DNA of 19,172 bases from Magnetococcales bacterium (lineage in GTDB: Bacteria > Pseudomonadota > Magnetococcia > Magnetococcales > UBA8363). Positions 1,621-19,172 of the stretch are shown here, one piece after another; position 1 is the stretch's first letter; each line of letters starts with the position of its first letter. The stretch is taken from contig JADFYU010000044.1 in NCBI GenBank assembly GCA_015232865.1, positions 1 to 19,172 of the forward strand. Direction: 5' to 3'. Both the position numbers and the translations under genes were made by a program. The notes beneath the pieces are model-generated. The model worked only from the letters and a program-made list of their open reading frames with translations, ran no database searches and was not told the origin of the DNA.

Positions 1621-1650
1621 CCGGTGATTTGGATGGAGATGGTTATGGTG

Positions 1651-4053: not shown

Positions 4054-4064
4054 GGTTTCTGGCG

Positions 4065-5267
4065 TCAATGCAACGAAGAGAGGGTACAATCAATGGCATT
4101 TTTCAACAATTCTACCCGTATTTCCGACTCATAAACAGGATTCATGATGATCACTTCAGCCGGTTGAACCTCTGTTAACTGATCGGGGCTGATGACCCGG
4201 CAGCCACTGGCCGGAAGATAGGTCGCTGTTTTATTCGGATTGATATCCACGACCGCAACGATTGTTGGATGGTTGTTCATGGCGGATAGAAACGCCACCG
4301 CCTTGGATCCTCCACCCCACAATACCACTCGCTGAGCACAATCGGCATGTTTTTGCAAACGAGATTGCCAATAGGTAACCTTTTGTGAAGATCTATCGCA
4401 AAAATGATCACTCATGGCATCCAGATCATTCCAGACCAATAACGGCTCATCGCCATTTTGAGGTCGGGAGGGTGGTACCCCTTCCACATTGACCAGGCCA
4501 AACAGTTGTAGATGCTGATCATCGTAGGTTCGGGAGATCTCCTCTATCAAAAAACCAGACTCTTTGAACAGCTTGACCAAGCTTTGCCAAGAAAAATAGC
4601 CACAATGTTCATAATAGAGGTCCCAAAATGCCCCTTCCCGCAAGATACGTCGATTATCCGGAACGGTAAAAAAAATCGGTATCGGTCGACTTCCAACCGC
4701 TTGCCGCAAATGTTGCAAAAGCCGCAACGGTTGAGAAATATGCTCCAACGTGTGTCGACAGATGATGCAGTCGGCATCCTGAACCAGGTCCGTATGCTCT
4801 TCAAAAAATCCGGAAACATAGTGTACCCTTTCCCGGTTGGATTGCCGGAGAGAATCGGGTATGGGTCCGGGATCAATGCCGATCCCAATGTTATCCCCCA
4901 ACTGACACAGTTGTGTTAAAAACTCCCCCTTGCCACAACCGATCTCGACGATTCTTTTACCAAACAACTCATATCGATCCCGCAACTCCTCAGCCTGTTT
5001 AATGGCAAACGAGCGGTATTTTTGGGAACAGGCCTGACTCTCTTCGCTGTGTGCGGTGTAATCCACCTTTCGCTGATCAAACTCCCGATTAAACAGATGA
5101 CCGCATCGACGGCAGCCATGGATAGCCAACTCCCCCACGGGATAGGCTTTCGCCTCGGCAGGGTTGTGGATGATCACCACATTTTGCAAGGGAACCCGAG
5201 CCAGATTAAAAAGCGGTCGGCTGTCACCGGATGAGCAGATAGGACACGTTGACATGGCGTGGTTCAT
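4065..5267 (-). CDS. Class I SAM-dependent C-methyltransferase-like protein (second of a pair)
   Basis: 400 residues with the three-part layout of sugar C-methyltransferases (Methyltransf_13, SAM fold, Methyltransf_14). An N-terminal Zn-ribbon-like set has Cys8/Cys11 and Cys52/Cys55. The SAM motif VEIGCGKGEF is at 107-116. A C-terminal Rossmann-like part contains VVLWGGGSKAVAF and VVDINPNKTATYLP. The catalytic-loop motif, usually YHEH, reads YYEH at 218-221. The family methylates carbons of NDP-keto-sugars. The start ATG overlaps the stop of the preceding gene as ATGA, which indicates translational coupling. It is a diverged paralogue of its neighbour, so it may methylate a different position or substrate, or have lost the activity. 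Fold confidence is high; the exact reaction is unknown. Confidence 0.85.
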   Translation of the reverse strand: MNHAMSTCPICSSGDSRPLFNLARVPLQNVVIIHNPAEAKAYPVGELAIHGCRRCGHLFNREFDQRKVDYTAHSEESQACSQKYRSFAIKQAEELRDRYELFGKRIVEIGCGKGEFLTQLCQLGDNIGIGIDPGPIPDSLRQSNRERVHYVSGFFEEHTDLVQDADCIICRHTLEHISQPLRLLQHLRQAVGSRPIPIFFTVPDNRRILREGAFWDLYYEHCGYFSWQSLVKLFKESGFLIEEISRTYDDQHLQLFGLVNVEGVPPSRPQNGDEPLLVWNDLDAMSDHFCDRSSQKVTYWQSRLQKHADCAQRVVLWGGGSKAVAFLSAMNNHPTIVAVVDINPNKTATYLPASGCRVISPDQLTEVQPAEVIIMNPVYESEIRVELLKNAIDCTLSSLH

Positions 5268-6517
5268 CTCGCTGGGTGGTTGATGAGCCGGACCGGAAAA
5301 CCGGGAATGAGAAAAGAGCCACCTTGATCTATAAACGGCTGTTCCTGAGCCAGGATCTCCCTCTCAAGATTCCAGGGAAGCAGCACCAACAGTTGAGGTG
5401 GTTTCCGCCGCAACCGCTCAATAGGGAGAATCTCGACACCGACACCCGGCATGAAACGACCCTGCTTGTGGGGGTTTCGATCCACCGCAAAGGGTATCCG
5501 GCTGTGGTCCACCCCACACATGTTCAACATCATCGTCCCCTTGGCCGCAGCCCCATATGCCGCCATGTCCACCCCCTGCCGATGTAGCTTCTCGATGCTC
5601 TGGGCCACGGACTGACAAAACTGAGGCACACGGCTGGAAAAGAGCTGCAACCCCTCCGCATCGACGCATTCTACGCGATTTTTCTCTTTTTGCAAAAAAT
5701 AGTCTATCGATTCATCCGGTTCACATTGGCGGGAAATCCATAAACGTAAAGAGCCTCCATGGACGGGAAAATGATCTACCCGATTCAGATGAAGTTCATG
5801 GTGGGCGAGCAGGGCCAAAAGGGAGGTGACGGTAAAGTAGCATTGATGCTCATGGTAGATGGTATCAAAACGGACTCCATCGACCAGATCGACAAAATAG
5901 GGGACCTCCATCACCAAAGTGCCATCGTCGGCCAGGAGCTGTTCGACTGCAGACAAGAAACCGTGCTGGTTACCTACATGAGCAAAAACATTGTTGGCAA
6001 CCACTACCTTGGCCCGACCACGTTGGGCTAGGAGTTGATCAGCCACAGCACGATCAAAAAACACCTCTAGGGTATCGATCCCCCGGCTGCGCGCCATCGA
6101 AGCCGGACCGCTGGCCGGATCGATTCCCAATACCGGAACCCCCTTATCCTTGAAATAGCGGAGTAAATATCCATCATTACTGGCGATTTCAAGCAGCCAA
6201 TCATCCTGTTTGAGATTGAGCCTTTCCAGAATGGTATCGGCCAGTTTTCGGGCATGCTCCAGGTAGGATCGGCTGTAGGAAGAGTAATAGGGAAACTGGG
6301 CTCCGAACAATTTTTTCTCAGAGATGGAGTGGCCGAGTTGGGCCAGCCCACACCGTTCACAGACCAATAGTTGCAAGGGATAGCGATCACAGCGCAACGA
6401 TTCTTCTCGACTGTGGCACAAGGCATCTGATGGGGGTAATCGGCCAAAATCCAGCACCTGGCGAAAGCCGGTATGGTGACACGCCCGACAGTTGCTGACC
6501 AGCTTTTCCTCGGCCAT
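5264..6517 (-). CDS. NDP-hexose C-methyltransferase (TylCIII/TcaB9-like)
   Basis: 417 residues. The N-terminal zinc-binding domain has Cys10/Cys13 and Cys53/Cys56. The SAM-binding motif LLEIASNDGYLL is at 108-119. The catalytic signature FDTIYHEHQCYF has Tyr221-His222-Glu223-His224. The C-terminal domain carries YGAAAKGTMMLN and FAVDRNPHKQGRFMPG. This is the full domain order of the C-3 methyltransferases that make branched sugars from NDP-4-keto-6-deoxyhexoses using S-adenosylmethionine. I chose ATG at 6517 rather than TTG at 6523 because it forms a TGATG overlap with the stop of the preceding SDR gene. The neighbours (RfbF, SDR, second methyltransferase) fit a CDP-sugar pathway. The actual sugar substrate is inferred, not shown. 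Confidence 0.9.
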   Translation of the reverse strand: MAEEKLVSNCRACHHTGFRQVLDFGRLPPSDALCHSREESLRCDRYPLQLLVCERCGLAQLGHSISEKKLFGAQFPYYSSYSRSYLEHARKLADTILERLNLKQDDWLLEIASNDGYLLRYFKDKGVPVLGIDPASGPASMARSRGIDTLEVFFDRAVADQLLAQRGRAKVVVANNVFAHVGNQHGFLSAVEQLLADDGTLVMEVPYFVDLVDGVRFDTIYHEHQCYFTVTSLLALLAHHELHLNRVDHFPVHGGSLRLWISRQCEPDESIDYFLQKEKNRVECVDAEGLQLFSSRVPQFCQSVAQSIEKLHRQGVDMAAYGAAAKGTMMLNMCGVDHSRIPFAVDRNPHKQGRFMPGVGVEILPIERLRRKPPQLLVLLPWNLEREILAQEQPFIDQGGSFLIPGFPVRLINHPAR

Positions 6518-7566
6518 CAGCAAGAGGCTTGTTTTTCTTCAGTTTGAACCCAACGCATCATCTCATCCAGCCTCCCCTGGGACTGTAGTGCCATGACATG
6601 CCGATTGCGAAAGAAGGGGTTCTCTTCAAACAGTTTGTTTTTCAGGGAAAAACGTTTAAAATCAGTAAAGAGTGTCCGGATTCCGGCTTCCAGATCCCAC
6701 TGCGGTTTAAAAGCGGGAATCTGCTCGGCAATTTTGGCACAATTCACCCGATAGTTTCGGATATCGGGTCCGGCTCCCTCAGCAAAACTGATTTGGCTGT
6801 CGGGTACCACCTGTTGAATCAGATTGGCCAACTCCCGGATACGAAAGTTGTCATCCCGGCGACCGACATTATACGCCTGATTATGAACCACCTTCCTGGA
6901 AGCCTCCAAAGTGGTGGCAAAAGCCAGAGCGATATCGCTGACGTGAACAACTGGACGCCAAGGGGAGCCGTCACTTTTTAGGCGAACCATTCCGGTGGTA
7001 ACAGCCCAACCCAGCAAATTGTTGATGACCAAATCACCACGCAAACGTGGAGAACTGCCGTAGGCGGTGCCGGAACGCAGATAGGTTGGGCTAAAATCCG
7101 CTGTGGCCAATTCTGCCAATGCCTGCTCGGCCCGCTCCTTGGCCCAGCCGTAGGGGGTAACCGGATTGAACGGTGCACTTTCATCCAGCAACGCCTCTCC
7201 CGAACTACCATAGACACTACAGGTGGATGCGTGGATAAAACGGCTTACTCTGGCATCCCGCGCCATTTTTGCCATGTGGATGGTACCGTGAAGATTGATA
7301 GATTCGGTACAGGCCGGGTTGAGGTCACCCAGAGGATCATTTGAGATAGCGGCCAGATGGATGACCGCATCAAACCCCACCAAATCTTTTTTTTCAACAT
7401 CCCGAATATCTTTGATTCTCGTAGCGATTGCTTTCGGTGGACAACCAAAATCACAGCCCGTGTAGAGCAAGCTGTCCAGCCCGTGCACATCATGACCACG
7501 CTCTGCCAACATGGGCGTCAACACACTGCCGACATAACCATCATGACCTGTTACCAAAACTTTCAT
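6517..7566 (-). CDS. NAD(P)-dependent extended SDR, nucleotide-sugar epimerase/reductase type
   Basis: 349 residues. It begins MKVLVTGHDGYVG, the GxxGxxG dinucleotide-binding loop (residues 7-13). The active-site stretch STCSVYGSSGE (114-124) and Tyr139-xxx-Lys143 (YGWAK) complete the extended-SDR catalytic set. 4,6-Dehydratases carry an acidic pair (STDEVYG-like) where this protein has STCSVYG, so an epimerase or reductase role is more likely than RfbG-type dehydration (inference). The start at 7566 is preceded by a strong GGGAG Shine-Dalgarno sequence 8 bases away. An upstream ATG at 7602 would place that signal inside the coding region, so I reject it. The stop overlaps the next start (TGATG). 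It probably acts on the nucleotide sugar made by the preceding RfbF-like enzyme. Confidence 0.88.
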   Translation of the reverse strand: MKVLVTGHDGYVGSVLTPMLAERGHDVHGLDSLLYTGCDFGCPPKAIATRIKDIRDVEKKDLVGFDAVIHLAAISNDPLGDLNPACTESINLHGTIHMAKMARDARVSRFIHASTCSVYGSSGEALLDESAPFNPVTPYGWAKERAEQALAELATADFSPTYLRSGTAYGSSPRLRGDLVINNLLGWAVTTGMVRLKSDGSPWRPVVHVSDIALAFATTLEASRKVVHNQAYNVGRRDDNFRIRELANLIQQVVPDSQISFAEGAGPDIRNYRVNCAKIAEQIPAFKPQWDLEAGIRTLFTDFKRFSLKNKLFEENPFFRNRHVMALQSQGRLDEMMRWVQTEEKQASC

Positions 7567-7574
7567 ACGATCTG

Positions 7575-7587
7575 CTCCCTTCCTCCC
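7575..7587 (-). promoter_or_regulatory. Ribosome binding site that fixes the SDR start
   Basis: On the minus strand GGGAGGAAGGGAG ends 8 bases before ATG at 7566. It is the clearest Shine-Dalgarno sequence in this operon and argues for the shorter start. Confidence 0.75.
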
Positions 7588-7650
7588 GACCTTCAGCTCC
7601 ATAACCCAACACTTTTTCCAATTATCCGTTTTATCCGCCGAAGCCCGTTT

Positions 7651-8424
7651 TCATCCTGTATACCAAGGGGCCTGATCATTTTCCCACCGTTTTTCGAGCA
7701 ACTCCTTTTCCGCCAAAGTATCCATGCACTGCCAGAACCCCTCATGCTTGAAGGCCATCAGCTCTCCTGACCGGGAGAGCTGCGTTAAAACATCTCGCTC
7801 CCAGGAGCAATTTTCAGAGGGAATCAGATCAAAGATCCCCGGCTCCAGGATAAAAACACCCCCATTAATCCACCCCTCTCTGCCCGGTTTTTTTTCCTGG
7901 AAGTCGACAACCCGGTCATCCTGCAAGTGCAAGCGGCCAAACCGAGGCGGTGGATAAACCGCTGCGACAGTTGCCAGCCGCCCGTGACCTTGATGAAACG
8001 TCATCATCTCCCGCAGATCGATATCATGCAGACCATCACACCAAGAGAGAAAAAAACGCTCTCCCTGCAACCAGGGTTGTAACCTTTTCACCCGTCCTCC
8101 GGTATCGGTATCCAGACCGGTATCGACCGCCTGAAAAAGAATATCCTCACCTTTTCCGATATGACGGGATTGGTGACAATACCGGTTGGCAGCAGGGTGA
8201 TCCGAAGAGATTTCCGTACACTGAGTGCTCAAAAAATCCGTCACTTTATCCGCCATATACCCCAAGGCCAGAACAATCTCATTCACTCCGGCCCGAGCAA
8301 CCAAGCCATGACAGATATGCCATAAAATAGGTAAAGGTCCAATGGCGGTGAGGGGTTTGGGCAGTTGGCGGGTCAGTTCGGCCAATCGTGTTCCACGTCC
8401 TCCGGCAAGAATCGCTCCTTTCAT
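7651..8424 (-). CDS. rfbF: Glucose-1-phosphate cytidylyltransferase-like nucleotidyltransferase
   Basis: 257 residues, the usual length for RfbF. The N-terminus MKGAILAGGRGTRL holds the nucleotide-binding loop (GGRGTRL, 8-14), followed by PKP at 22-24. Other family hallmarks are ILWHI, TGGRVKRL (108-115), Asp130 in LSWCDG (usually YGDG), PPPRFG, WINGGVFILEP (185-195), GELMAFKHEGFWQCMDT (220-236) and a closing APW. The enzyme joins CTP and glucose-1-phosphate to give CDP-glucose, the entry step to CDP-linked deoxy and branched sugars. The start ATG at 8424 has AAAGGGAG about 11 bases upstream. The gene heads the SDR/methyltransferase run. No RfbG dehydratase is present in the window, so the pathway must be completed elsewhere or work differently. 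TrpCysAsp instead of TyrGlyAsp at 128-130 is a mild oddity. Confidence 0.87.
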   Translation of the reverse strand: MKGAILAGGRGTRLAELTRQLPKPLTAIGPLPILWHICHGLVARAGVNEIVLALGYMADKVTDFLSTQCTEISSDHPAANRYCHQSRHIGKGEDILFQAVDTGLDTDTGGRVKRLQPWLQGERFFLSWCDGLHDIDLREMMTFHQGHGRLATVAAVYPPPRFGRLHLQDDRVVDFQEKKPGREGWINGGVFILEPGIFDLIPSENCSWERDVLTQLSRSGELMAFKHEGFWQCMDTLAEKELLEKRWENDQAPWYTG

Positions 8425-8451
8425 GGCTTGTCAAGCTCCCTTTACTCAAAC

Positions 8452-8612
8452 CTAGAAACGGCAGTTGTTAGTATATGGTTGGCATAGCCTCTTGATTCAT
8501 CTACTGTAATAAAAAAAAGTCTTATCACCCATTGGGTGACTTCGATTTTTTCTATTACAGTAGCTAAACCAATATTTTGCACCATTCATACACTCCCATC
8601 TGCCGTTTCTAG
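8452..8612. mobile_element. 161-bp nested palindrome, MITE-like, possible IS5-type CTAG ends
   Basis: The whole segment is symmetrical about base 8532 without gaps. Outer arms CTAGAAACGGCAG (8452-8464) and CTGCCGTTTCTAG (8600-8612) are perfect. Middle arms CTACTGTAAT (8501-8510) and ATTACAGTAG (8554-8563) are perfect. The centre is TCACCC-ATT-GGGTGA (8525-8539). The stretches between outer and middle arms still match at about 20 of 36 positions. No coding frame is present. The ends could be a CTAG target duplication flanking a 153-bp element with AAACGGCAG termini (inference). It separates the GT2 gene from rfbF. T8 follows the central hairpin on the minus strand and T6 on the plus strand, so it could also terminate or attenuate transcription into rfbF. 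Confidence 0.7.
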
Positions 8613-8639
8613 ATTAAAGACAAGACAAAACTTGGCAAT

Positions 8640-9707
8640 TTATTTGTTGGCAGTTTGCTGAATAATCTTCGTCACCTCTTGTTCAAACCGAGTCAGTTCC
8701 GGTTGATTGGGAAACAGTACCATCAATAGAGCCAGATCACGCCGGAGTTCCAAGGCATCCTGAAAAGGTATCAGGCCAGGAATACGGATTTTGTCCAGAA
8801 CAGCCTCTTTAGCGTTGTCCAAAAGATTGCGCAGTTCTACGTCAAGAAAGGGAAACCGCTGGGCTGCATAGTTGACTAAGGCATTGGAGACCGTGGTTTT
8901 TTTGTCCGGTGCCAATACAGGTGTGTAGCGAATCACGTCCAGATGAGATTGGATCATATAGGTGTAAGGAAGAATGTTCGACCAACCCTCGGTTGGATCG
9001 ACAAAACCGAACTCCGGCTTCATGCGCCGCAACTCCGCCTCCAAGCCTTGAAACTCTATTTCCCGGTTTTGTCGCAACTTGTGCAAAATCTCGGGTATTT
9101 GATCCGTCTCTCCGTAGAGGTTGACCTCCGCCAGAAGGATCCGATCCGTTGCCAGACGGGTGGAAAACAGGCCGGTTTTTCTCAGTATTTCAGAACGATA
9201 CAAACCCCAGATCATTTCACAACCGGGACCCAGTTGGGTAAAAACATCAAAAAAACGTTGCTCAGGCGGACTCCCTACTGTTTTCAACAGTGGGCTGGGT
9301 TCACTGGTGACGTTGTTTTCGTAATCCATAAAAACAGTCTGGGGATAGGCCAGGGCCAGATTGGGGTTGTCTAGATGCAGATCAACCAATTTACGGATAA
9401 AGGAAGGTTCCCATAGATCATGATCCGACCCCCACATGAAAAACTCACCTCGGCTTAACCGAAAAACCTGGTTGAAATTCTCCGGCTGTCCATAATTGTA
9501 GTTGTTCTGGACGGTATGTATGCGAGAATCTCGTTTTTGATAGTCGGTGATGACCGCGTAGGCGTCATCTGTTGAGGCGTTGTCGGAGATGATGATCTCC
9601 AGGTTGGCATAGTCCTGGCCGAGCAGGGAATCCAAGGCACTGGGTATCCACCGCCCCCCATTGTAGGTCGGAATACCGACGCTCACCAAAGGCAACGAGT
9701 CTTTCAA
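8640..9707 (-). CDS. Family 2 glycosyltransferase
   Basis: About 355 residues from the preferred TTG at 9707. The GT-A fold is clear: LVSVGIPTYNGG at the start, LEIIISDNASTD around residues 36-47, and GSDHD (about 93-97) at the DxD position that binds the nucleotide-sugar metal. The remaining 250 residues are typical of large GT2 proteins with helical C-termini. Such enzymes add sugars to glycans or to lipid- or protein-linked acceptors in the cytoplasm. I prefer TTG at 9707 because AAGGA lies 8 bases upstream. A TTG at 9731 would add LKKKRKTT-type residues encoded by a run of ten A. No ATG is available. The gene is transcribed toward the sugar operon but separated from it by the palindromic element, so shared transcription is uncertain. 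Confidence 0.86.
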   Translation of the reverse strand: MKDSLPLVSVGIPTYNGGRWIPSALDSLLGQDYANLEIIISDNASTDDAYAVITDYQKRDSRIHTVQNNYNYGQPENFNQVFRLSRGEFFMWGSDHDLWEPSFIRKLVDLHLDNPNLALAYPQTVFMDYENNVTSEPSPLLKTVGSPPEQRFFDVFTQLGPGCEMIWGLYRSEILRKTGLFSTRLATDRILLAEVNLYGETDQIPEILHKLRQNREIEFQGLEAELRRMKPEFGFVDPTEGWSNILPYTYMIQSHLDVIRYTPVLAPDKKTTVSNALVNYAAQRFPFLDVELRNLLDNAKEAVLDKIRIPGLIPFQDALELRRDLALLMVLFPNQPELTRFEQEVTKIIQQTANK

Positions 9708-9718
9708 TGTTGTTTTCC

Positions 9719-9728
9719 TTTTTTTTTT
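9719..9728 (-). repeat. A10 homopolymer at the start of the GT2 gene
   Basis: Ten T on the plus strand are read as A10 on the minus strand. The run lies just after a possible TTG start (9731) and just before the AAGGA ribosome site for TTG 9707. Runs of this length can slip during replication. Confidence 0.8.
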
Positions 9729-9731
9729 CAA

Positions 9732-10017
9732 GAATCAAGTTTAGCGACAATACAATTTCCCCGGATATTTTACGGCTTGCAGCCTAACTGTATAATAGTA
9801 AAGTTGGCAAAGTTTTTTTTGCTGCCGTATCGTTTGCTGACCGGTACACTTTTTCATCAACGATCCAGTCGCCCGGGTATGATATAATCCATAAAAAACA
9901 ACAGTCCCAAGCAAAAGATCGGCTCTTTTTTGCCTCATTCTTTATAAATTAATTTTCCGATTTCGGGCCTCGTGTCGGTTTTTTCAGTAGATTTTTCTAA
10001 AATAATACGAATTAAAA
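9732..10017. other. Divergent intergenic region between GT2 and autotransporter (left part)
   Basis: No gene was found here. Short frames such as 9741-9938 minus have no recognisable features. The region is AT-rich and must hold the leftward promoter for the GT2 gene, but I could not pick out a convincing -35/-10 pair. A weak CCGA/TCGG hairpin with T6 sits at 9958-9987 on the plus strand. Confidence 0.5.
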
Positions 10018-10046
10018 TTGACTTGATCGGCAACGTTCAATAAAAT
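10018..10046 (+). promoter_or_regulatory. Sigma70-type promoter for the autotransporter
   Basis: TTGACT (10018-10023) and TAAAAT (10041-10046) are separated by exactly 17 bases, and each matches consensus at five of six positions. Transcription would start near 10053, giving an untranslated leader of about 75 bases. The leader contains a small hairpin, TGTGC-ACAG-GCACA, at 10088-10101. Confidence 0.7.
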
Positions 10047-10065
10047 CGTTTGATTTTATTGAATG
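10034..10065. promoter_or_regulatory. Perfect 12-bp palindrome over the -10 and start site (operator candidate)
   Basis: TTCAATAAAATC (10036-10047), loop GTTT, GATTTTATTGAA (10052-10063). The pairing extends by one G-T and one C-G pair outward. It covers the -10 box and predicted start point, as expected for a repressor site. It could instead act as a hairpin at the 5' end of the transcript. Confidence 0.6.
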
Positions 10066-10117
10066 ATTCTTACATATAGATAATTTTTGTGCACAGGCAC
10101 ACATACCATAAAGAGAC

Positions 10118-10121
10118 GGAG
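10118..10121 (+). promoter_or_regulatory. Ribosome binding site of the autotransporter
   Basis: GGAG, with 8 bases to the ATG at 10130. It supports this start, which also gives a proper signal peptide. Confidence 0.7.
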
Positions 10122-10129
10122 TTTAGACA

Positions 10130-13100
10130 ATGATCCCTTCGCACCGTTCACCGCATAGAACCAAATTCATTTCCCTGCTGGCCCTCTCTGCCATCATCGC
10201 CGCTCCCTCAACATCCATATCAGCTAATATCACTATCAACACGGATATCACCACCAATCAAACCGGTGATAACGTCGTCAATTTTACACAGGATGTTGCG
10301 GCCACGGTCAAGGATGGCGTCACCCTCAGCGAAGCGACACCCGGTACCCACAATGTGGTGGTCAACAACGGTACCGGCGTTGTCGATAAGGGTACACTTA
10401 ATCTGGAAGGTGATGTCATCGTCAAAGGTAAGGTTGGAACCAGCACCAATAGTTACAGCATCAAACTTCTCAACCTGCAAGCCGACTCAACCAACGCCTC
10501 CACCGGTACATCGACCTTTACCAGCGACATCTATGCGGCGACCGTCAACTTTGAGGCCGACAACATCATGCAGATGGACGCCGACGTCGACATTACCGGC
10601 AAGGTAACCGCCAGCTCCAATAATATCGGGACCCTGGACTTTGTCGGGAACGGTTCGGTGAGCAGTACCATTGGCGATGTAACCAACGCCATCAAGAAAA
10701 TTACAGTTGACTCATCAACAGCCAGCACGGCAACCATCACCCTGAACGGCGACACCTTTTCCCAATCAGTCTTTTTCGACAACGATTCCACTCTGGTTTT
10801 GGCCGATACGGTGGACATCACCGGAGATACCAGTGGCAACGACAGCCTGGGTATCTATCACGACGGCGCTTCTGCTTCCGGTACCATCACAGCCAACGGA
10901 ACCAGTATCCTGGCTGTCGATATCGGCTCGTCCGGTACAAATAACCGTCTGAAACAGTTAAATATCGCCGGCGCCAACAGCCTCACCCTGAATGGTAACG
11001 CCTACTTTGCCGATGTGGACTTTGCCTCCACCGGCACCTTGGAGATCGGCTCTGGAAAAACCCTGGGCGTCACCAATAAAATTGAGACCGCTGGCAACAA
11101 TCAGGGAACCGTCACGGTTACCGGTACCTTGGACCTGGATGGCGATTTGGGTGCGAGCAATCTGGATATCAATTTATTGACCGTAAACGGATCGGCAGAT
11201 CTGGCTGGAGATATCTATGTCAATGATGCCGCCAGTGCCGCTACCGGTGCTGTTATCGGTGCGGCGGGTACACTGACCCTGAGCGGAACCGGCAAGACCA
11301 TCCATGGCGTCATCAATGGTGCCAGTGATGGAGCTGGCTCCCTGACCACGACCGGTTCAGCCACCTTCGGAAATACCGTTGGTGCCCAAAACGCCTTAGC
11401 CACGGTAACCGTAAACAGCACCGGAACCCAAGCCTTCAACAGCAGCCTGGCGGCCACTACCCTGGACTTTGATCTGGACGGCACAGCAACGGTAGCCGGC
11501 ACCACCGGCATCACAAACGTCACCGTCGCCTCGGACTCCATCGGTACTTTGCAGTTGGATGGCGCCGGCACCATTGCCGGAGACGTCGGTGTTAATACCA
11601 GTACTGAATTAAAATTGCTGACGGTCAATGAAACCAGCTCCGTAGCCGGTCATCTCTACTCGGAATCGACCACCATTGCCAATGGTAAAACTTTGACTCT
11701 ATCCGGCACCGGTAAAACCGTCTCGGGCACCGTCACCGGTGCCACTAACGGTGTTGGAACGCTCACCCTAACCGGCAGCACCTCCTTCAATAGTGCCGTC
11801 GGTGTGGCTAACTCTTTAGCTGACCTCAACATAAACAACACCAACACATTTAACGGTAGCGTTGCCGCCACCACATTTAATTTCAACTCAGACGGTACGG
11901 CGGTTTTTGCCGATAATGCCAACCTGACCAGCACCAACATTGAAATGGGCTCCGCCAACATTGGTACCCTAACCTTCAACGGCAACAGCACCGTTGGTGG
12001 CAACGTCAATGCCAACGGTTTAAAGCAAATCAACGTAAGCTCCGCTGGTGCCGGTAAGACGGTTGCCTTCAGCGGCACGGTCTATACCAAAGATATTGAT
12101 TTTACCACCAGCAATGCCGGAACCCTGGCCTTGAATGGAACCACCAACATCACCAATGACGTGGAATCTGCCAACGACGGTGTCGGCACCATCACCTTTG
12201 CCGGAACCACCACCCTGACTGATGACCTGGGTACCAGCTCCGGCACGGAACTGGCCCAAGCCAACATCAATGAAAATACCAGTGTCGGCGGTAACGTCTA
12301 TACCCAAGATGTCAACATCGCCTCCACCAAAACCCTGACCCTCTCCGGGGCCAGTAAAACCGTAAGCGGTGAGGTGGACGGTACCGGTAACATGACCCTG
12401 ACCGGTACGACGACCTTCTCGACCAATGTCGGCTCCAGCACTCCCTTGGCACTCCTGACCGTCAACAACGCCGGAACCCAAGCCTTCAGCGGCAGCCTCG
12501 CAGCCACCACCCTAGACCTGGACCTGGACGGTACGGTAACGGTTGCCGGTGCGGCAGCCATTACCAGTATCACGGTAGCCTCCGACTCCATCGGTACCGT
12601 GCAACTAGACGGAGGCGGCACTCTGGCGGGGGATGTGGGTGTAAATAGCAATACCGAACTCAAACAACTTTCGGTCAACGGTGACACCAGCATTGCCGGA
12701 CACAGCTACGTTGAAAGTATTGACGTACTCGCTTCCAAAACCCTGACCCTCTCCGGCACCGGAAAAACGGTAACCGGAGCCATTGACGGACCGGGTAATC
12801 TCACCCTGACCGGAACACAAACCTTCAACAGTAATGTTGGTTCCTCCAGCAGCTTGGCTACCATCACCATCAACAATGCCGGCGCACAAGCCTTCAGCGG
12901 TAATTTGGCAGCCACCACCCTGGACTTTGATCTGGACGGCACAGCAACGGTAGCCGGCACCAGCGGCATCACAAACGTCACCGTCGCCTCGGACTCCATC
13001 GGTACTTTGCAGTTGGATGGCGCCGGCACCATTGCCGGAGACGTCGGTGTTAATACCAGTACTGAATTAAAATTGCTGACGGTCAATGAAACCAGCTCCG

Positions 13101-15832
13101 TAGCCGGTCATCTCTACTCGGAATCGACCACCATTGCCAATGGTAAAACTTTGACTCTATCCGGCACCGGTAAAACCGTCTCGGGCACCGTCACCGGTGC
13201 CACTAACGGTGTTGGAACGCTCACCCTAACCGGCAGCACCTCCTTCAATAGTGCCGTCGGTGTGGCTAACTCTTTAGCTGACCTCAACATAAACAACACC
13301 AACACATTTAACGGTAGCGTTGCCGCCACCACATTTAATTTCAACTCAGACGGTACGGCGGTTTTTGCCGATAATGCCAACCTGACCAGCACCAACATTG
13401 AAATGGGCTCCGCCAACATTGGTACCCTAACCTTCAACGGCAACAGCACCGTTGGTGGCAACGTCAATGCCAACGGTTTAAAGCAAATTAACGTAAGCTC
13501 CGCTGGTGCCGGTGAGACGGTTGCCTTCAACGGCACGGTCTATACCAAAGATATTGATTTTACCACCAGCAATGCCGGAACCCTGGCCTTGAATGGAACC
13601 ACCAACATCACCAATGACGTGGAATCTGCCAACGACGGTGTCGGCACCATCACCTTTGCTGGAACCACCATGATCACCGGCGATCTGGGTACCGCAGCGG
13701 CTAACGAACTGGCCGGAGCCAACATTGGTGCCGATACCACCGTCGGCGGTCATCTCTATGCTCAGGCGATCAATTTCAATAGCGACAACAATCTGACCAT
13801 GACCGGCGCCGGGAAAACCATCAGCGGTGCCATCACCACCAACACGACGGAAACCGGTACCCTCACCCTTTCCGGTACCGGTGCCAACACCATTTCCGGT
13901 CTGGTTGGTGCCAGTGGTAAGGTCCTTAAAAGTATCTCTATCGATGACTCCGGTACCAACACCTTCTCCTCGAACATCTACACCAAAGGAATCGGTTATA
14001 CCGCCACCGGGTCAGGTACCTTGGCCATCGACGGCACCATGTTGACCTTGGGCACCACCGGAATAACTGTCGCCACTAATGATGTTGGTATCTTCAGCTC
14101 TAGCGGAACCAGCACGCTTGCCATGAGTGGAGATGTCGGATCTGCGGTGAATGAACTCTCCCAATTCAATGTTACCGGAGGCACGCTATCCCTTACCGGT
14201 AGCAATGCTATCTATGCCGATGACATCACCATTTCCAGCGGAGCGACCATGGACCTGGGAGCCAGCCGGACGATGGTTGGTTCCAACAGCCTGACCAACT
14301 CAGGCACCCTGGATCTAAGCACTTATACGGCAACCCTAGGTGCCTCGCCGGTCACCCTATCAGCCGATTCAAAACTATCCACCACTCTTTTGACGGCAGC
14401 CAACGGCAAGCTGGTTACCACCGCTGCAGTTGATTTGGGCGGTAACGATACCACCATGCCGAAAATCACCGCAACCTTGGACTCCAGCCTGGACCTTTCA
14501 TCTGGCACAACAACCATCACCATCATTGATGCCGGCACCGGTATCACCTACTCCGGCGGTGGCGCAATTGGTGATTACAACACCGCGGGCAACGGTATTT
14601 TGACCTTGAACAATGCCTCCGCATTCTTCGATGCCGCCGCAGTCCATGATACCGTCAATCATGACTTGAACCTGACCTTTACAATTAAAGACGGATCACA
14701 AATAGGGACCTCCACCGAGCAAGGCGGTACTGTACTTGCGAGTGCAATCAAGGCGGGCAATACGGCAGCTAAAACAGCTCTGTTTGCCCTTACTACCCAA
14801 GCTCAACTGGATGAGGCGGCAGAAAAGCTCACCGGCAATAGCCAAGCGGTCGTTGCCGGCTCGATTCAAGCGGCCGGCAATGGCATAACCAATACCCTGG
14901 GTAATCGTTTGACCGATCTGCGTGCCTCATCCGGTCGCTACGGCAAAAATACCTTTGCCGCCAATCGTGCGACTCAAACCGGTATCTCTTCCGGTTCATC
15001 AGCGAAAGATACCGGTCTCTGGATCGAGGGGTTTGCCGGCAATGCCAACCAGGGCAAAAAGAACGGTATCTCAGGTTATGATTCTACCACTACCGGTATT
15101 GTCGCAGGTATAGATGGCAGCCTGAACCCGGACACCCGAATCGGCGCCTCTCTGGCCTATGCCAAAGCAGAAGTGGACGGCGATGGCACTGGTGCGGTTG
15201 AGGTTGATTCAGGAATCGTACAGCTCTCCCTCTATGGCACCCACCTGATGTCCGACTTTTACATCGATGGAATGGTGGCCTTTAGCTTGGGGGATAACGA
15301 TTCCAAACGTGTCGATATTCTCAATGACACCATCACAGCCAGTTATAACAGCAGTGTTTCAACCGCCAAGTTAGGGGTTGGCATGCCACTTGATCAAGGA
15401 GACTGGGTCATCACTCCGCAAGCGGACGTTCAGGTCACCCACAGTCGCGTCGATGGCTATACCGAGACCGGTTCCACCGGTGGTTTGAATCTGACGGTAG
15501 ACGCCTACCGTAAAACCTCTGCCAAACTGGAAGTTGGTGGTCGTGTTTCTACCGCCATTAAATCAGGAAGTGGTACCCTCTCTCCATCTTTTGTGGCTAA
15601 AGGGGTCTGGTACTCCGACGATACAGTGACCACCACCAATACCTTCAGCGGTGGCGGTGCAGCCTTTACCTATACCGGTATCGATCGTGGCAATATCGGC
15701 GGCAAGCTCAGTGCTGGTCTTGAGTATCTTACCGATGACGGTACCTACGCTGTTTCTCTCAACTACGACGGTGAGATTCGTGACAGCTACAACAGCAATA
15801 CAGGTACACTGCGTTTCCGCTACAATTTCTAA
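10130..15832 (+). CDS. Large type Va autotransporter with repeat-rich passenger
   Basis: 1900 residues. Residues 1-32 form a signal peptide: Arg/Lys-containing start, hydrophobic FISLLALSAIIAAPS, and likely cleavage after SISA. Residues about 33-1500 are a Thr/Ser/Asn/Gly/Ala-rich passenger of short beta-strand repeats, such as six versions of TLTLSGTGKTVSG, and fit a beta-helix. Residues about 1540-1605 (ending NTLGNRLTDLR) look like the helical pore linker. Residues 1625-1900 (GLWIEGFAGN to the terminal RFRYNF) form the autotransporter beta-barrel, ending in Phe as outer-membrane proteins do. I see no cysteine in the protein. A 251-residue block is duplicated almost exactly (445-695 and 931-1181). 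The passenger would be exposed at the surface or released; I recognise no adhesin or enzyme domain. It is divergent to a glycosylation locus, which may matter because many autotransporter passengers are glycosylated. Confidence 0.93.
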   Translation: MIPSHRSPHRTKFISLLALSAIIAAPSTSISANITINTDITTNQTGDNVVNFTQDVAATVKDGVTLSEATPGTHNVVVNNGTGVVDKGTLNLEGDVIVKGKVGTSTNSYSIKLLNLQADSTNASTGTSTFTSDIYAATVNFEADNIMQMDADVDITGKVTASSNNIGTLDFVGNGSVSSTIGDVTNAIKKITVDSSTASTATITLNGDTFSQSVFFDNDSTLVLADTVDITGDTSGNDSLGIYHDGASASGTITANGTSILAVDIGSSGTNNRLKQLNIAGANSLTLNGNAYFADVDFASTGTLEIGSGKTLGVTNKIETAGNNQGTVTVTGTLDLDGDLGASNLDINLLTVNGSADLAGDIYVNDAASAATGAVIGAAGTLTLSGTGKTIHGVINGASDGAGSLTTTGSATFGNTVGAQNALATVTVNSTGTQAFNSSLAATTLDFDLDGTATVAGTTGITNVTVASDSIGTLQLDGAGTIAGDVGVNTSTELKLLTVNETSSVAGHLYSESTTIANGKTLTLSGTGKTVSGTVTGATNGVGTLTLTGSTSFNSAVGVANSLADLNINNTNTFNGSVAATTFNFNSDGTAVFADNANLTSTNIEMGSANIGTLTFNGNSTVGGNVNANGLKQINVSSAGAGKTVAFSGTVYTKDIDFTTSNAGTLALNGTTNITNDVESANDGVGTITFAGTTTLTDDLGTSSGTELAQANINENTSVGGNVYTQDVNIASTKTLTLSGASKTVSGEVDGTGNMTLTGTTTFSTNVGSSTPLALLTVNNAGTQAFSGSLAATTLDLDLDGTVTVAGAAAITSITVASDSIGTVQLDGGGTLAGDVGVNSNTELKQLSVNGDTSIAGHSYVESIDVLASKTLTLSGTGKTVTGAIDGPGNLTLTGTQTFNSNVGSSSSLATITINNAGAQAFSGNLAATTLDFDLDGTATVAGTSGITNVTVASDSIGTLQLDGAGTIAGDVGVNTSTELKLLTVNETSSVAGHLYSESTTIANGKTLTLSGTGKTVSGTVTGATNGVGTLTLTGSTSFNSAVGVANSLADLNINNTNTFNGSVAATTFNFNSDGTAVFADNANLTSTNIEMGSANIGTLTFNGNSTVGGNVNANGLKQINVSSAGAGETVAFNGTVYTKDIDFTTSNAGTLALNGTTNITNDVESANDGVGTITFAGTTMITGDLGTAAANELAGANIGADTTVGGHLYAQAINFNSDNNLTMTGAGKTISGAITTNTTETGTLTLSGTGANTISGLVGASGKVLKSISIDDSGTNTFSSNIYTKGIGYTATGSGTLAIDGTMLTLGTTGITVATNDVGIFSSSGTSTLAMSGDVGSAVNELSQFNVTGGTLSLTGSNAIYADDITISSGATMDLGASRTMVGSNSLTNSGTLDLSTYTATLGASPVTLSADSKLSTTLLTAANGKLVTTAAVDLGGNDTTMPKITATLDSSLDLSSGTTTITIIDAGTGITYSGGGAIGDYNTAGNGILTLNNASAFFDAAAVHDTVNHDLNLTFTIKDGSQIGTSTEQGGTVLASAIKAGNTAAKTALFALTTQAQLDEAAEKLTGNSQAVVAGSIQAAGNGITNTLGNRLTDLRASSGRYGKNTFAANRATQTGISSGSSAKDTGLWIEGFAGNANQGKKNGISGYDSTTTGIVAGIDGSLNPDTRIGASLAYAKAEVDGDGTGAVEVDSGIVQLSLYGTHLMSDFYIDGMVAFSLGDNDSKRVDILNDTITASYNSSVSTAKLGVGMPLDQGDWVITPQADVQVTHSRVDGYTETGSTGGLNLTVDAYRKTSAKLEVGGRVSTAIKSGSGTLSPSFVAKGVWYSDDTVTTTNTFSGGGAAFTYTGIDRGNIGGKLSAGLEYLTDDGTYAVSLNYDGEIRDSYNSNTGTLRFRYNF
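11462..12212 (+). repeat. Direct repeat, copy 1 (751 bp) in autotransporter passenger
   Basis: This copy matches 12920-13670 with an offset of 1458 bases (486 codons, in frame). By direct comparison I count five differences, at 11505, 12031, 12056, 12072 and 12202. Three of them change residues (Thr/Ser, Lys/Glu, Ser/Asn), and four of the five lie in the last 200 bases. Confidence 0.93.
12920..13670 (+). repeat. Direct repeat, copy 2 (751 bp) in autotransporter passenger
   Basis: This is the second copy, residues 931-1181. Between the copies, starting near residue 795, lies a clearly diverged third version of the same module (LDLDLDGTVTVAG). The 751-bp identity is therefore a recent event on top of older repetition. 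Confidence 0.93.
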
Positions 15833-15843
15833 TTCTCTAAACT

Positions 15844-15875
15844 TCACTCCTCCTGACAAACGTCGGGAGGAGTGA
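15844..15875 (+). terminator. Hairpin after the autotransporter gene
   Basis: CACTCCTCCTGAC, loop AAAC, GTCGGGAGGAGTG form a 13-bp stem with one T-G pair, extended by one T-A pair, 12 bases after the stop codon. There is no immediate T-run (a T6 occurs about 25 bases later), so it is a strong hairpin but not a textbook intrinsic terminator. Confidence 0.6.
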
Positions 15876-16165
15876 GGTGGCCCCCATTGCAAGGACAATT
15901 TTTTAGCAAAATTAAACGTTTCGGAAAAATAATAAACCAGCATAAAACAGCGCATAAAGATTATCGAAACTCAGAGGGTTTTTGCACAGAAAAAAGAGCC
16001 CGACCGCCTACTCAGGAAGGGCATGGTTCTACATTAAGTTATTTGTGAGGATATTTGGAGAGTTCATATATGTAGCTGGAAACGGGAATCTGCAGCCCAA
16101 ATCATGTTCTTTCACAGACAAGATTGTCAGATCGCAAATAAACAAGGTTCGTGAAGCCTCCTGTT
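15876..16165. other. Intergenic stretch without a recognisable gene
   Basis: Open frames here, including one at 15982-16260 plus, show no known motif, and that frame overlaps the 3' end of the MBL remnant. Apart from a weak terminator candidate at 15990-16022 I see nothing. Confidence 0.5.
15990..16022 (-). terminator. Weak intrinsic terminator candidate downstream of the MBL remnant
   Basis: Read leftward, GCCC..CC / GG..GGGC is followed by TC and T6. The stem is only four plus two pairs with internal mismatches. It is correctly placed about 145 bases after the MBL remnant's stop. Confidence 0.3.
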
Positions 16166-16680
16166 CTACCACCCCATATGGTAGTAAGCCCAGATACGCT
16201 CAATATTCATCGGCAGCCATTGGTCATAACCCCGCCAATGCGCATATTTGGGAAGCTTGACCGTTTTTCTTAGAGCATCTGGACCGTGAACCCCGGACTC
16301 CTCAGCCTTCTTGACGGCTGTCATGAGGTCTTCTAGTTGGGGCCAAAGTAGCTCAATTCCAAGCTGCGCCCACCCAAACGCACGGTAAGATTTTTCTTGA
16401 AAGTGATCTCCGGAACCGGGATCACCGGGCTGGGATGATCCCCAAGCTGCTTAACCACATTCTCATGGCCGATGAACTTGGCACCCTCGGCCTTGAATAT
16501 ATTCCCACCAGAGATGTGATCATGATGGTTATGTCTATAAACCACATACTTAACCGGCTTATCGGTACGTTTACGAATCTCGGCCTGTAGCAGTTTTGCT
16601 GCCTTGGGATTAAGAGGGTCGGTAACAATGACTCCCTCATCCGTAATAAGAAACAAATTCCGGTATACCCGCTCTCGGAT
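16166..16680 (-). pseudogene. MBL-fold metallo-hydrolase remnant: N-terminus missing, large internal deletion
   Basis: The first piece (about 16680 to 16336) reads VYRNLFLITDEGVIVTDPL and RHNHHDHISGG, the HxHxDH zinc motif of the metallo-beta-lactamase fold, and runs to LELSYFGPN before a stop. The coding sense resumes at 16333 in another frame with EDLMTAVKKAEESG, then VKLPKYAHWRGYDQWLP and NIERIWAYYHMGW, and stops at 16166-16168. That second piece matches the usual C-terminus of this family. The central part, which should carry the remaining zinc ligands, is gone; I estimate more than 100 residues. The signal-peptide and N-terminal region is also missing, ending where LysR begins. The gene cannot make a working hydrolase. 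Confidence 0.8.
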
Positions 16681-17491
16681 CAGTAAACAAGTTGCTGCAT
16701 TGGAGGAGAAGACCGGTGTACGCCTCTTCGACCGAACAACACGGCGGGTTAGTCTAACCGAAGGGGGACAGCTCTACCTGGAACGATGTCAGTGGATTCT
16801 TAAAGAGTTGGAGACGGCAGATTCCGCACTTGACCAGATCCGTGACGAACCACGAGGCCGACTGAGATTGAGTGCCCCTCTCACTTTTGGCCTGTTACAC
16901 ATAGCACCAACACTGCCGGAGTTTCTTCACCAACATCCACAGATCCAGGTGGATCTCTCTTTGAATGACCGGCATGTAGACCTCATTGAGGAGGGGTTCG
17001 ATCTGGCCATCCGCATCGGCAACCTCCCAGATAGCAGTTTTAGAGCCCGAAAACTGGCAACAGACCGGCGTGTGGTTTGTGGTTCACCCGACTATTTCCG
17101 CCAACACCTACCCCCTCAAACCCCAGCGGATTTGGAACAACACAACTGCCTGACCTATAGCTATGCGGCCCGGAACGATATCTGGCAGTTTTCAGGACCG
17201 GATGGAGATTTTCAGGTACACGTAAAGGGCAACCTTCGAGTCAACAACGGGGATACGTTGCGACTGGCCGCCTTGGCAGGACTTGGGCTGATACAGGTTC
17301 CCACCTTCATGGTCGGTGGAGATTTGCAGATGGGACGGCTAAGGTCGATCCTAACCGAATACGGTGGGGACAGAGTGACTATTCAGGCTCTTTATCCTGG
17401 GGGGCGGCACACACCTTCCAAGGTGCGGGCCTTCATTAACTTTTTAGCACAACGTATCGGCAAACGGCCTGACTGGTATTTAACCGATTGA
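16679..17491 (+). pseudogene. LysR-family regulator lacking the first part of its DNA-binding domain
   Basis: Homology starts abruptly at ISKQVAALEEKTGVRLFDRT, the second half of the LysR winged helix-turn-helix. It continues through LTEGGQLYLERC, the linker helix and the substrate-binding domain (RGRLRLSAPLTFGLLHIAPT, VDLIEEGFDLAIRIG, LAALAGLGLIQVP) to an intact C-terminus. About 30 N-terminal residues with the first helices are missing. The frame is open to 16604, but those upstream codons are antisense to the MBL remnant and are not LysR sequence. Head-to-head placement suggests LysR once sat divergently beside the MBL gene and may have regulated it (inference). The ligand is unknown. It is probably non-functional because the recognition domain is incomplete. 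Confidence 0.8.
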
Positions 17492-17510
17492 AAATATGTG
17501 AAAAAATAAA

Positions 17511-17610
17511 AACACCCGCATAACTGAGCTCATAACATAACAAGAGATCAAGACAATACCAGAAAATACCAAGTCAGGCATCGCGCTGACCAAAATAGTG
17601 TGCGGGTGTT
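17511..17610. repeat. 100-bp segment with 10-bp inverted ends
   Basis: AACACCCGCA (17511-17520) and TGCGGGTGTT (17601-17610) are perfect inverted repeats. A second, interleaved pair, GCGCTGA (17583-17589) and TCAGCGC (17610-17616), overlaps the right side. There is no coding content. It could be a small mobile-element remnant or a chance pairing. Confidence 0.4.
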
Positions 17611-17624
17611 CAGCGCATCATAAT

Positions 17625-17939
17625 TCACGCTACCTGCGTGAGTTTGATAATTCCGGTAAGTCGGTTATAATGCGGCCAAAGAGGTTCAAATGATGTGGCA
17701 GGAGGTTCAGTATGACGAAACATGACCTGCCAATTCTCCTCATCCCATATAAGGTTATACAGCATACCAGGGTTTGCAGCCATTTCTTGGATGGTATCAA
17801 CCGAGGATTGATCAAACCAGGTCACATCTTCCTCGGCAAATAGGGTGATCGGACGACCATTCTTGAGTTCCTAAGAGAACACGACCAACTGGCCGCCCAA
17901 AGTTCGCATGGTATTTTGAGCAACGGGAGACCATTTATC
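17625..17939 (-). pseudogene. Remnant of a small phage-like protein with an internal stop
   Basis: On the minus strand the frame reads DKWSPVAQNTMRTLGGQL, VVFS, then TAG (17871-17873), then ELKNGRPITLFAEEDVTWF. It continues through LIWDEENWQVMFRHTEPP to IIKLTQVA and a stop at 17625. The pattern (WSPVAQ, GRPITL, VxFRH, a closing LTLxV-like strand) resembles short proteins I associate with tail regions of prophages, but I cannot name the family with certainty. The frame is bounded upstream by another TAG at 17940-17942, so the N-terminus is missing. About 104 codons survive. The intact part from GTG 17825 alone is unlikely to be functional. Confidence 0.45.
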
Positions 17940-17970
17940 CTAGATTCGGCAGCTGGGTGTGCATTAATGG

Positions 17971-18048
17971 TGAAAGCCGGTCAATCTTGTAGGTGACGAT
18001 ACTATTCACCTTGCCCGCCTCGATGTCATCAAGGGGCCGCTGCAAGGA
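17971..18048 (-). pseudogene. Short fragment of a serine recombinase (resolvase/invertase family)
   Basis: The translation contains SLQRPLDDIEAGKVNSIVTY followed by KIDRLS. This is the conserved block of large and small serine recombinases (family pattern: RPALQRLLDDIEAGKIDxVVVYKxDRLSR). Only about 26 residues survive: sequence before 18048 and after RLS (PLMHTQLPN) does not fit the family. The catalytic Ser region is absent. It sits next to the phage-like remnant but in another frame, so the two were joined by deletion or are separate scraps of one prophage or integrative element. Confidence 0.65.
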
Positions 18049-18181
18049 TGCCACACACCTCAACAAAATTGTGCCCTGGGGTGAAAACCACGCTTACAGT
18101 TAACAGCCCAGAAACTCATCCTGAAAAAAACAATTTCCAGTTGATAATAGTGTCAAGACTTTTCTTTGCCAAACTTCAAAA
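18049..18181. other. Non-coding stretch between recombinase scrap and hairpin
   Basis: I see no gene or convincing signal. A TTGACA occurs on the minus strand near 18150-18155 without a well-placed -10. Confidence 0.35.
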
Positions 18182-18216
18182 AAAGTGCTACCGTTTTGCA
18201 GTGTTGGTAGCACTTT
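18178..18216 (-). terminator. Leftward intrinsic terminator
   Basis: A perfect 11-bp stem, AAAGTGCTACC (18182-18192) with GGTAGCACTTT (18206-18216), has a 13-base loop. Read on the minus strand the stem runs into T7 (18184-18178), the classic arrangement. No minus-strand gene lies immediately to the right, so it is probably a leftover or marks an element boundary. Confidence 0.6.
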
Positions 18217-18257
18217 AGCCTGAGATCCTCGTCAATGAACAAGAGATCTCTGAACGA

Positions 18258-18286
18258 TTGCGGATAGTTAAAACTTTTCTTAATAT
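18258..18286 (+). promoter_or_regulatory. Weak promoter candidate before the RelA/SpoT-like gene
   Basis: TTGCGG (18258-18263) and TAATAT (18281-18286) are 17 bases apart. The -35 is poor and the -10 matches at four positions. It is well placed for a start near 18322. Confidence 0.3.
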
Positions 18287-18321
18287 TATTCATCGTCAAG
18301 ACAGCAATTCCGAGCAACAAA

Positions 18322-19172
18322 TTGTCATTATATACAAAAAATATTGAAGAAATTCTAGATACATACGATGAGTATTACGACTTGCACAAGTCTTATTGTG
18401 AAAGGCTCGTCGTTATACTTAAAGAAATATTCAATAAAACTACGATACCAGTAAGCTCCATATCAGGAAAAATCATATCTAGAGGTATGTTGCGAAACAA
18501 GCTCCTATCAAAAACAGGTGCTACATATAATACGTTAGATGACATAGAAGATATAATAAGCCTAAAGTTAGTGTTAAACTTTCATGATGATATTAATTTA
18601 TCAATATCTATGGTTGGAAGAGAATTTTTGATTGAAGAGTTTCAGCTATCAAAGGCAGAAGAAAAAGCTCAAATCCATTTCGGAATACTTATGAAGCGAC
18701 TTTCATTAATGTTACCCGAGGAAAAATATCGTCAGGTTGAATATGAGCGCTTCGCATCATTGAGAGCCGAATTAATAATCAGGACGGATCTTCAGAACTC
18801 ATGGTTCGATGTAAAAGATATATTTGATGATATTGTAAAAGCAAATCATATTTCTGGTGAGGAAATCAATAAATTAGCGCAAGTTTCATATTTGCTAAAA
18901 ATGGCTGATGACGAGCTATGCAGGATAAGAAGCGCACTAATTAGTCAAACAAAGGATAACGAAAAACGGGATCGCTCCGAAGAAAAAAAAGCACAACGTC
19001 AGAGGGAAAATCTAATTCAAGATGATGTCCCTAAACAACGTCAGAGGAAAAATCTAATTCAAGATGATGTCCCTAAACAACGTCAGAGGGAAAATCTAAT
19101 TCAAGATGATGTCCCTAAACAACGTCAGAGGGAAAACCTAATTCAAGATGATGTCCCTAGGCAACCTCAGAG
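18322..19172 (+). CDS. Divergent RelA/SpoT-like nucleotidyltransferase-fold protein with C-terminal tandem repeats (partial)
   Basis: The frame is open from 18268 to the right edge, with no stop. TTG at 18322 is the best available start; no ribosome site is obvious. An in-frame ATG at 18235 is cut off by TAG at 18265. Residues about 1-210 align by eye with small (p)ppGpp synthetases of the RelQ type. SISGKIISRG fits the GRVK strand, LDDIEDIISLKLVLNFHDDI fits the QDIAGLRI...DDI segment, and AELIIRTDLQNSW fits EIQIRTxxxxxW. A helix ending LLKMADDELCRIRSAL matches the family C-terminus. Several catalytic positions differ: GRVK is GKII (49-52), GLR is SLK (Lys82), Gln of EIQ is Ile152, His of IEH is Asp166, and the GYRSxH loop is not recognisable near 119-128. 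From residue 225, 14-residue repeats begin. AT-rich composition suggests acquisition by transfer. Alarmone synthesis is doubtful. Confidence 0.68.
   Translation, partial: MSLYTKNIEEILDTYDEYYDLHKSYCERLVVILKEIFNKTTIPVSSISGKIISRGMLRNKLLSKTGATYNTLDDIEDIISLKLVLNFHDDINLSISMVGREFLIEEFQLSKAEEKAQIHFGILMKRLSLMLPEEKYRQVEYERFASLRAELIIRTDLQNSWFDVKDIFDDIVKANHISGEEINKLAQVSYLLKMADDELCRIRSALISQTKDNEKRDRSEEKKAQRQRENLIQDDVPKQRQRKNLIQDDVPKQRQRENLIQDDVPKQRQRENLIQDDVPRQPQ
18994..19172 (+). repeat. 42-bp in-frame tandem repeats (four copies plus a fifth beginning)
   Basis: Units are at 18994-19035, 19036-19077, 19078-19119 and 19120-19161, and a fifth begins at 19162 and leaves the window. Each encodes QRQRENLIQDDVPK. 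Copy 2 has Lys for Glu, and copy 4 ends in Arg with one silent change. Near-identity at the DNA level indicates recent expansion. Confidence 0.95.

Follow-up and report, generated by a model that had tools for sequence, protein, structure and literature searches.

A RelA/SpoT-like gene at a contig end

The stretch of DNA analysed here, which we call the window, comprises positions 1 to 19,172, apparently the entire length, of contig JADFYU010000044.1 from a Magnetococcales bacterium (assembly GCA_015232865.1), and the gene in question is an open frame of 283 codons on its forward strand (18322-19170) that runs off the right contig edge inside a tandem repeat. A TTG start is consistent with this frame: relatives start with MSLYSKNIE at the corresponding position. 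An earlier reading of the window from its letters alone (hereafter the sequence-only reading) had recognised RelA/SpoT landmarks in their proper order on this frame, which our analysis bears out; the resulting features are collected in Table 1.

Table 1. Positions of the gene's parts, of a nearby remnant and of two FlgB-like genes in other loci; coordinates without a prefix refer to the window.
Feature	Position	Strand	Remark
N-terminal RelQ/RelP-like (RelA_SpoT) domain, residues 1-212	18322..18957	+	most catalytic motifs replaced
K50-I-I52, equivalent of R-V-K	18469..18477	+	motif mapping; last residue = ATP-binding Lys80 of SaRelP
D77-I-I-S-L-K82, equivalent of D-x-x-G-x-R	18550..18567	+	Mg-ligand Asp kept, Gly and Arg replaced
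G121-I-L-M-K-R126, equivalent of the GYRSxH G-loop	18682..18699	+	Tyr to Ile, His to Arg
E150-L-I152, equivalent of E-I-Q	18769..18777	+	Mg-ligand Glu kept, Gln replaced
Charged linker between the domains, in part predicted to be disordered, truncated at the contig end	18958..19172	+	pLDDT (predicted local distance difference test); variable linker position in relatives
42-bp / 14-residue tandem repeat (QRQRENLIQDDVPK), with 4.3 copies before the contig ends	18993..19172	+	Tandem Repeats Finder (TRF)
Possible serine recombinase remnant upstream of the gene, separate from it	17935..18093	-	PF00239 at E 0.057 and 14 bits (cut-off 23.3)
FlgB-like gene (example)	L048:9549-10055		directly downstream of the putative pseudo-synthetase gene
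FlgB-like gene of genome G011	L041:6632-7006		3.7 kb upstream, E 1.5e-8

Predicted monomer models give the N-terminal domain a clearly RelQ-like fold of the RelA_SpoT kind, in which residues 12-209 align with RelQ 3-197 and hence with nearly the whole enzyme. This fold is common to RelQ (SAS1, YjbM) and RelP (SAS2, YwaC), from which the window protein differs in having its ATP lysine, G-loop Tyr and His, Gln of EIQ and His of E-H replaced, and its relatives in adding a linker and a C-terminal domain. The sequence-only reading had called for this comparison with RelQ and also for a PF04607 profile search, which did not reach the window sequence: PF04607 is absent from the protein's Pfam matches, of which PF03636 (E 0.079) was the only one. 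Among the eight relatives of a first protein search (343-483 residues), one has a PF04607 row (P0006, 18.9 bits against a cut-off of 27); L048 likewise stays below the cut-off with 19.7 bits, and the near-canonical family members L067 (67.7 bits) and L076 lie above it. In the PHROGs, phrog_9640 matches residues 7-214 of the 283 (E 2.6e-22); it is a profile of 365 positions, of unknown function and without a curated cut-off, and when two genomes were searched its C-terminal part found a match only in the paralogue at G001:C44 (E 1e-5). A search of PDB sequences with the window protein gave a marginal match to 2be3 (E 0.0097) and one with the family profile A2 gave none, so the sequence link from the window to RelQ passes via the near-canonical relatives. 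The latter, found in the same order, have the two-domain architecture in common with the window family and are clearly homologous to it, but they retain GRVK, D-x-x-G-x-R, the G-loop Tyr and EIQ, motifs that are not retained in the window clade.

In the relatives, a linker that varies in both sequence and length joins the N-terminal domain to a C-terminal one of about 140 residues. The window repeat occupies the position of this linker, with predicted pLDDT below 50 at residues 233-263 and 275-283, and the window copy ends within it; a C-terminal domain, if the gene continues into one, would be expected to end near FANDLLFYYRKSV. That the 14-residue repeat is genuine, as had been claimed, follows from its TRF score of 325 (42 bp, 4.3 copies, 95% matches) against 200 dinucleotide shuffles of the region, which yielded three TRF rows scoring at least 50, the best 66. 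The suggestion that this repetitive tail is a sensing or scaffolding module is not supported, because the repeat lies in a variable inter-domain linker that a conserved second domain follows in full-length relatives. We also reject repeat expansion as a family-wide feature, since TRF rows scoring at least 40 occur in only 5 of 53 family open reading frames (ORFs), those of the window, L051, L067, L070 and L072, with linker arrays in the window and L051 and a two-copy 23-bp linker repeat in L070. An exact scan of viral_contigs for the repeat gave no match. A C-terminal domain in common with synthetases of other bacteria is not shown: the C-domain profile stayed at chance level in all four outside proteins, its best outside score (E 0.017) falling on the wrong part of a Klebsiella protein and the right part of a Bacteroides protein reaching 2.7 bits.

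The window clade and its catalytic residues

A family-wide profile search returned at least 19 rows, the window included (best 7999 candidates scored). Relatives with an organism label come mostly from Magnetococcales or Magnetococcus metagenome-assembled genomes, besides one labelled Nitrospirae and one labelled Alphaproteobacteria, and two JGI relatives are annotated as putative GTP pyrophosphokinase. With profile A2 the family turns up in 38 of the 48 genomes of the order to which G001 belongs. Of 398 genomes drawn evenly from the phylum, 40 match at E 1e-10; 38 of these belong to the order's genomes, and the other two (G101 and G344) match more weakly and over positions 14-234 only. All 48 genomes of the order also have a PF04607 match over the cut-off, very strong in 44, as expected of a long Rel.

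From 42 loci and the window we took the 53 family ORFs, leaving out 10 contigs with further matches, and sorted the 50 that are full-length or the window's own into 14 near-canonical ORFs, 20 that are members of tandem pairs or other paralogues, and 16 of the window type, the last set growing to 22 rows with six database proteins. The window type forms one clade (support 100/100; 100 in a quick tree), within which the window falls in a subclade of 10 rows (99/96) apart from the other 12 (93, quick tree); its nearest rows are P0003 and P0002, each 68.7% identical over 211 columns. By profile score 17 genomes hold the window type, a count that includes the interrupted copy of G011 (61% identical to the window) and a fragment in G032, both left out of the tree.

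Residues described as binding ATP, Mg and guanosine in SaRelP (Lys80, Ser84, Lys88, Arg91, Asp107, Glu174 and Tyr151; excerpts of PMC5794853) were mapped by motif spacing, aided by a HMMER alignment of L067 with RelQ. Across the 14 near-canonical rows and five synthetases used for comparison, four of them taken from named plasmid or phage records and one a TPR-type from G002, the Arg and Lys of GRVK, the Asp, Gly and Arg of DxxGxR, the G-loop Tyr and the Glu and Gln of EIQ are invariant. In 21 of the 22 window-type rows, by contrast, the Lys80 equivalent is Met (Ile in the window), and the Tyr151 equivalent is Ile and the G-loop His Arg in 21 rows each; ranked by entropy within the clade, the columns with this Met, Ile and Arg fall at the 12th percentile. 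The Ser84 and Lys88 equivalents vary, the latter being Lys in six rows including the window, while the Asp107 equivalent is Asn in 15 and Asp in five and the Glu174 equivalent is Glu in 15. Each replacement named by the sequence-only reading is real: GRVK reads G49-K-I-I52, G-x-R reads S80-L-K82, GYRSxH reads G121-I-L-M-K-R126, E-x-Q reads E150-L-I152 and E-H reads K165-D166. The window thus has the equivalents of Lys80, Ser84 and Tyr151 replaced and those of Lys88, Asp107 and Glu174 kept; it has neither the conserved ATP, Mg and guanosine residue set of small alarmone synthetases nor the intact catalytic site expected of CapRel or toxSAS (toxic small alarmone synthetases). Judging from these alignments, the active site of the window clade is rewired, not merely worn.

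Nei-Gojobori dN/dS (nonsynonymous to synonymous substitution rate) lies between 0.060 and 0.166 in nine window-type pairs, which share members and in some of which dS is near saturation. Such values fit a protein with a role and speak against a pseudogene family.

A probable pseudo-synthetase and the rival readings

Kinship, predicted fold, ATP- and guanosine-site residues replaced and re-fixed across the clade, and purifying selection between relatives are the basis on which we read the gene, with a probability of roughly 0.6, as a pseudo-(p)ppGpp synthetase: a RelQ-like domain, a flexible repeat-expanded linker and a conserved, mostly helical C-terminal domain, with the RelQ-like fold serving as a platform. 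The same evidence supports well the earlier suggestion of a pseudo-enzyme. Synthesis of (p)ppGpp by the window protein is unlikely as far as sequence can tell, and the comparison suggests that bacteria of the order reuse a dead alarmone-synthetase-like enzyme for a new job. The protein would no longer make alarmone; its RelQ-like fold would form an oligomeric platform and take up another ligand or a protein in its reshaped pocket, the C-terminal domain would contact a partner and pass the signal on, and the linker repeat would change tether length only. A tetramer has been described for RelQ and RelP, though not for the present family (excerpts of PMC5794853).

Dead synthetase domains are already known inside long SpoT proteins. 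For example, SpoT of Acinetobacter baumannii has, according to excerpts of PMC9974481, an inactive pseudo-SYNTH domain with the RelA/SpoT synthetase fold in its regulatory part; while the window protein would resemble it as an inactive synthetase fold, the SpoT domain forms part of a long hydrolase, whereas the window family is without hydrolase and has another C-terminal domain. If our reading is true, the retention of a stand-alone small dead synthetase with new residues fixed at its catalytic sites would mean that the alarmone-synthetase fold has been reused as a binding module, and the presence of near-canonical and rewired paralogues in the same order makes the change testable step by step. 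Among the listed titles and abstract starts of open-licence PMC articles we found no literature on the window-type clade; a divRel is listed for Magnetococcus (PMC3153485, in excerpt).

Several observations weigh against this reading. The window keeps the Mg-ligand equivalents D77 and E150 as well as K60, although D77/E150 retention is not clade-wide. Only five of the 14 near-canonical rows have His at the G-loop His position and none has it in E-H, so two of the five named losses are not special to the window clade and may be older or unconnected with activity; judged by their residues, the activity of the near-canonical members is itself not certain. The relative in G011 is interrupted by a stop, which means that the gene can be lost, and the dN/dS evidence comes from relatives only, the window being in none of the tested pairs. 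Finally, of the four genomes in or nearest the window's subclade, G001 and G002 are without the small FlgB-like gene introduced below as a candidate partner, and the gene of G042 is unsupported, which leaves G011 as the only one to have it, at a distance of 3.7 kb.

That the fold remains capable of transferring a pyrophosphoryl or nucleotidyl group, with other substrates, strikes us as rather unlikely. The metal-ligand equivalents kept in the window would suit such an enzyme, and toxSAS such as FaRel2 show, in the published excerpts, that these folds can change substrate; on the other hand, over the 22 clade rows the Mg-ligand Asp survives in only five and the Glu in 15, Met stands for Lys80 in 21, and the Ser84 and Lys88 positions vary. 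We also think it unlikely, and somewhat more so, that the protein is a dead subunit of mixed oligomers regulating a more canonical family paralogue: activation of a live paralogue by a dead one has a precedent in a different enzyme (PMC5201418, in excerpt), and 11 of the 17 window-type genomes carry a further family member elsewhere, but the other six (G034, G035, G036, G042, G043 and G045), whose assemblies may be incomplete, show none.

A toxSAS or CapRel-like phage-defence protein is very improbable. CapRel senses phage, and CapRel and toxSAS carry a C-terminal pseudo-zinc-finger antitoxin domain; the corresponding end of the window protein lies beyond the contig, and the fold matches listed for a relative scarcely extend into its C-terminal domain. 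CapRel is a tRNA pyrophosphokinase (title of 7ztb), whereas the window protein has its catalytic residues replaced; PADLOC returned 0 families at E 10 for the contig-end-truncated protein, and the window type occurs across one order, outside which the 398-genome draw gave no full-length match. The following gene, in the possible place of an antitoxin, lies beyond the contig end. Just as improbable is a decaying gene or chimeric contig end, for which the low content of guanine and cytosine (GC) from about 18100, the adjoining possible recombinase remnant and the contig end inside a repeat could be cited, but the frame stays open to the edge, the N-domain is collinear with relatives save one extra residue, and these relatives are under purifying selection.

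Neighbouring genes and genomic context

Recurrent neighbours differ between family subgroups. In 10 window-type loci (L042-L049, L053 and L054), all of the sister subclade, the small FlgB-like gene lies directly downstream on the same strand, 28-107 bases away; L051 and L052 of that subclade have no such neighbour. Together with G011, which lies near the window's subclade by identity, the gene is present in 11 of the 17 window-type genomes. A profile search did not find it in G001, G002, G043 or G045, and in G032 the contig ends. The small gene of G042 (L050) was dropped as a candidate, given that a profile made without L050 misses it among 3002 ORFs even at E 10, while picking up the L041 gene and the true FlgB of L071; profile A6 and an earlier profile included the L050 protein, so their L050 hits arise by construction.

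As far as sequence comparison goes, the link of these small genes to FlgB is sound, because profiles without canonical FlgB recover true FlgB: that of the 10 FlgB-like proteins alone finds the FlgB of L071 (E 2.4e-17 among 3002 ORFs), and A6, built from the same 10 plus L050 and L041, hits the FlgB place in all 40 genomes having FlgB over the TIGR01396 cut-off. A canonical FlgB is encoded elsewhere in 8 of the 11 genomes with the FlgB-like gene. The FlgB-like proteins differ from the L071 FlgB where the latter reads ANVANGDTPGYKA, which we take to be the usual rod signature, and the one tested against PF00460, from L048, gave no match. The near-canonical gene of L071 is divergent beside its true flgB (TIGR01396 112 bits), with fliF- and fliG-like frames near by eye.

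In the sister subclade the co-located FlgB-like protein would be the first candidate partner, and a concrete one; for the window itself the partner idea is weak. It is doubtful, if conceivable, that some bacteria of the order possess a two-gene module of a rewired dead alarmone synthetase and a divergent FlgB (flagellar rod) paralogue without the rod signature, which would couple a nucleotide or some other signal to the assembly of flagella or to a different process derived from FlgB; the gene of the window would then be a cousin with its partner outside the visible sequence.

The sequence-only reading had also noted a deviant base composition, and GC is indeed 0.334 in 18322-18992 against 0.506 in 1-18099. 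GC lies below that of the remaining locus for window-type genes in 15 of 15 intact loci and for near-canonical ones in 11 of 14, with drops above 0.10 in the window, L050, L054 and the tandem pairs of L063, L065 and L066. Recent transfer of the window copy is possible because its low GC is real. Of the recombinase and phage debris proposed as context, the former stands only weakly, its match being below cut-off (Table 1), and the latter is not borne out: Pfam shows no phage genes among 10 window ORFs and three window pieces, PHROGs having been run for the present gene alone among window genes. Nor is a defence or element-borne gene supported for the window type. Besides the PADLOC result, viral_contigs holds no relative of the gene and tblastn with P0006 found nothing in phages and a single weak match in plasmids. 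That the window type recurs throughout one order, with repeated neighbours, further opposes an element-borne origin; on the other side stand the low GC of the window copy and the more canonical L067, of which 14 phage and 40 plasmid records contain distant relatives.

Elsewhere in the window, an IS66 transposase lies at the far left end, a 1900-residue autotransporter (10130-15832) has repeated stretches by eye, and two other genes that were searched have relatives in the order of G001 at 32-49% and 32-40% identity, which is not enough to fix the host; no RNA family exceeds its gathering score.

Among the loci of relatives, pst-like ABC-transporter genes (by eye) lie upstream in seven of the window type (L042-L044, L047-L049 and L055). 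The paralogues L058:8469-9722 and L080:317-1522 stand directly upstream of dnaG- and rpoD-like frames (by eye), and primase and transcription are targets of (p)ppGpp. Tandem pairs in L059, L060, L062 and L064 lie beside a gene with a weak radical-SAM match (in L060 TIGR04078, E 1.6e-4, below cut-off), three of these four loci also having a glycosyltransferase-like gene by eye. The tandem pair of L065 (3224-6728) adjoins HExxH-peptidase- and HlyD-like genes, the former scoring 159.4 bits with a daptide metalloprotease model whose cut-off is 300, and similar genes stand beside the pair in L066. Convergent to the window gene's relative in L001 is a 2024-residue protein (L001:11245-17319) with 44 Sel1 repeats and a non-repeat C-terminus, and L002 has a similar protein.
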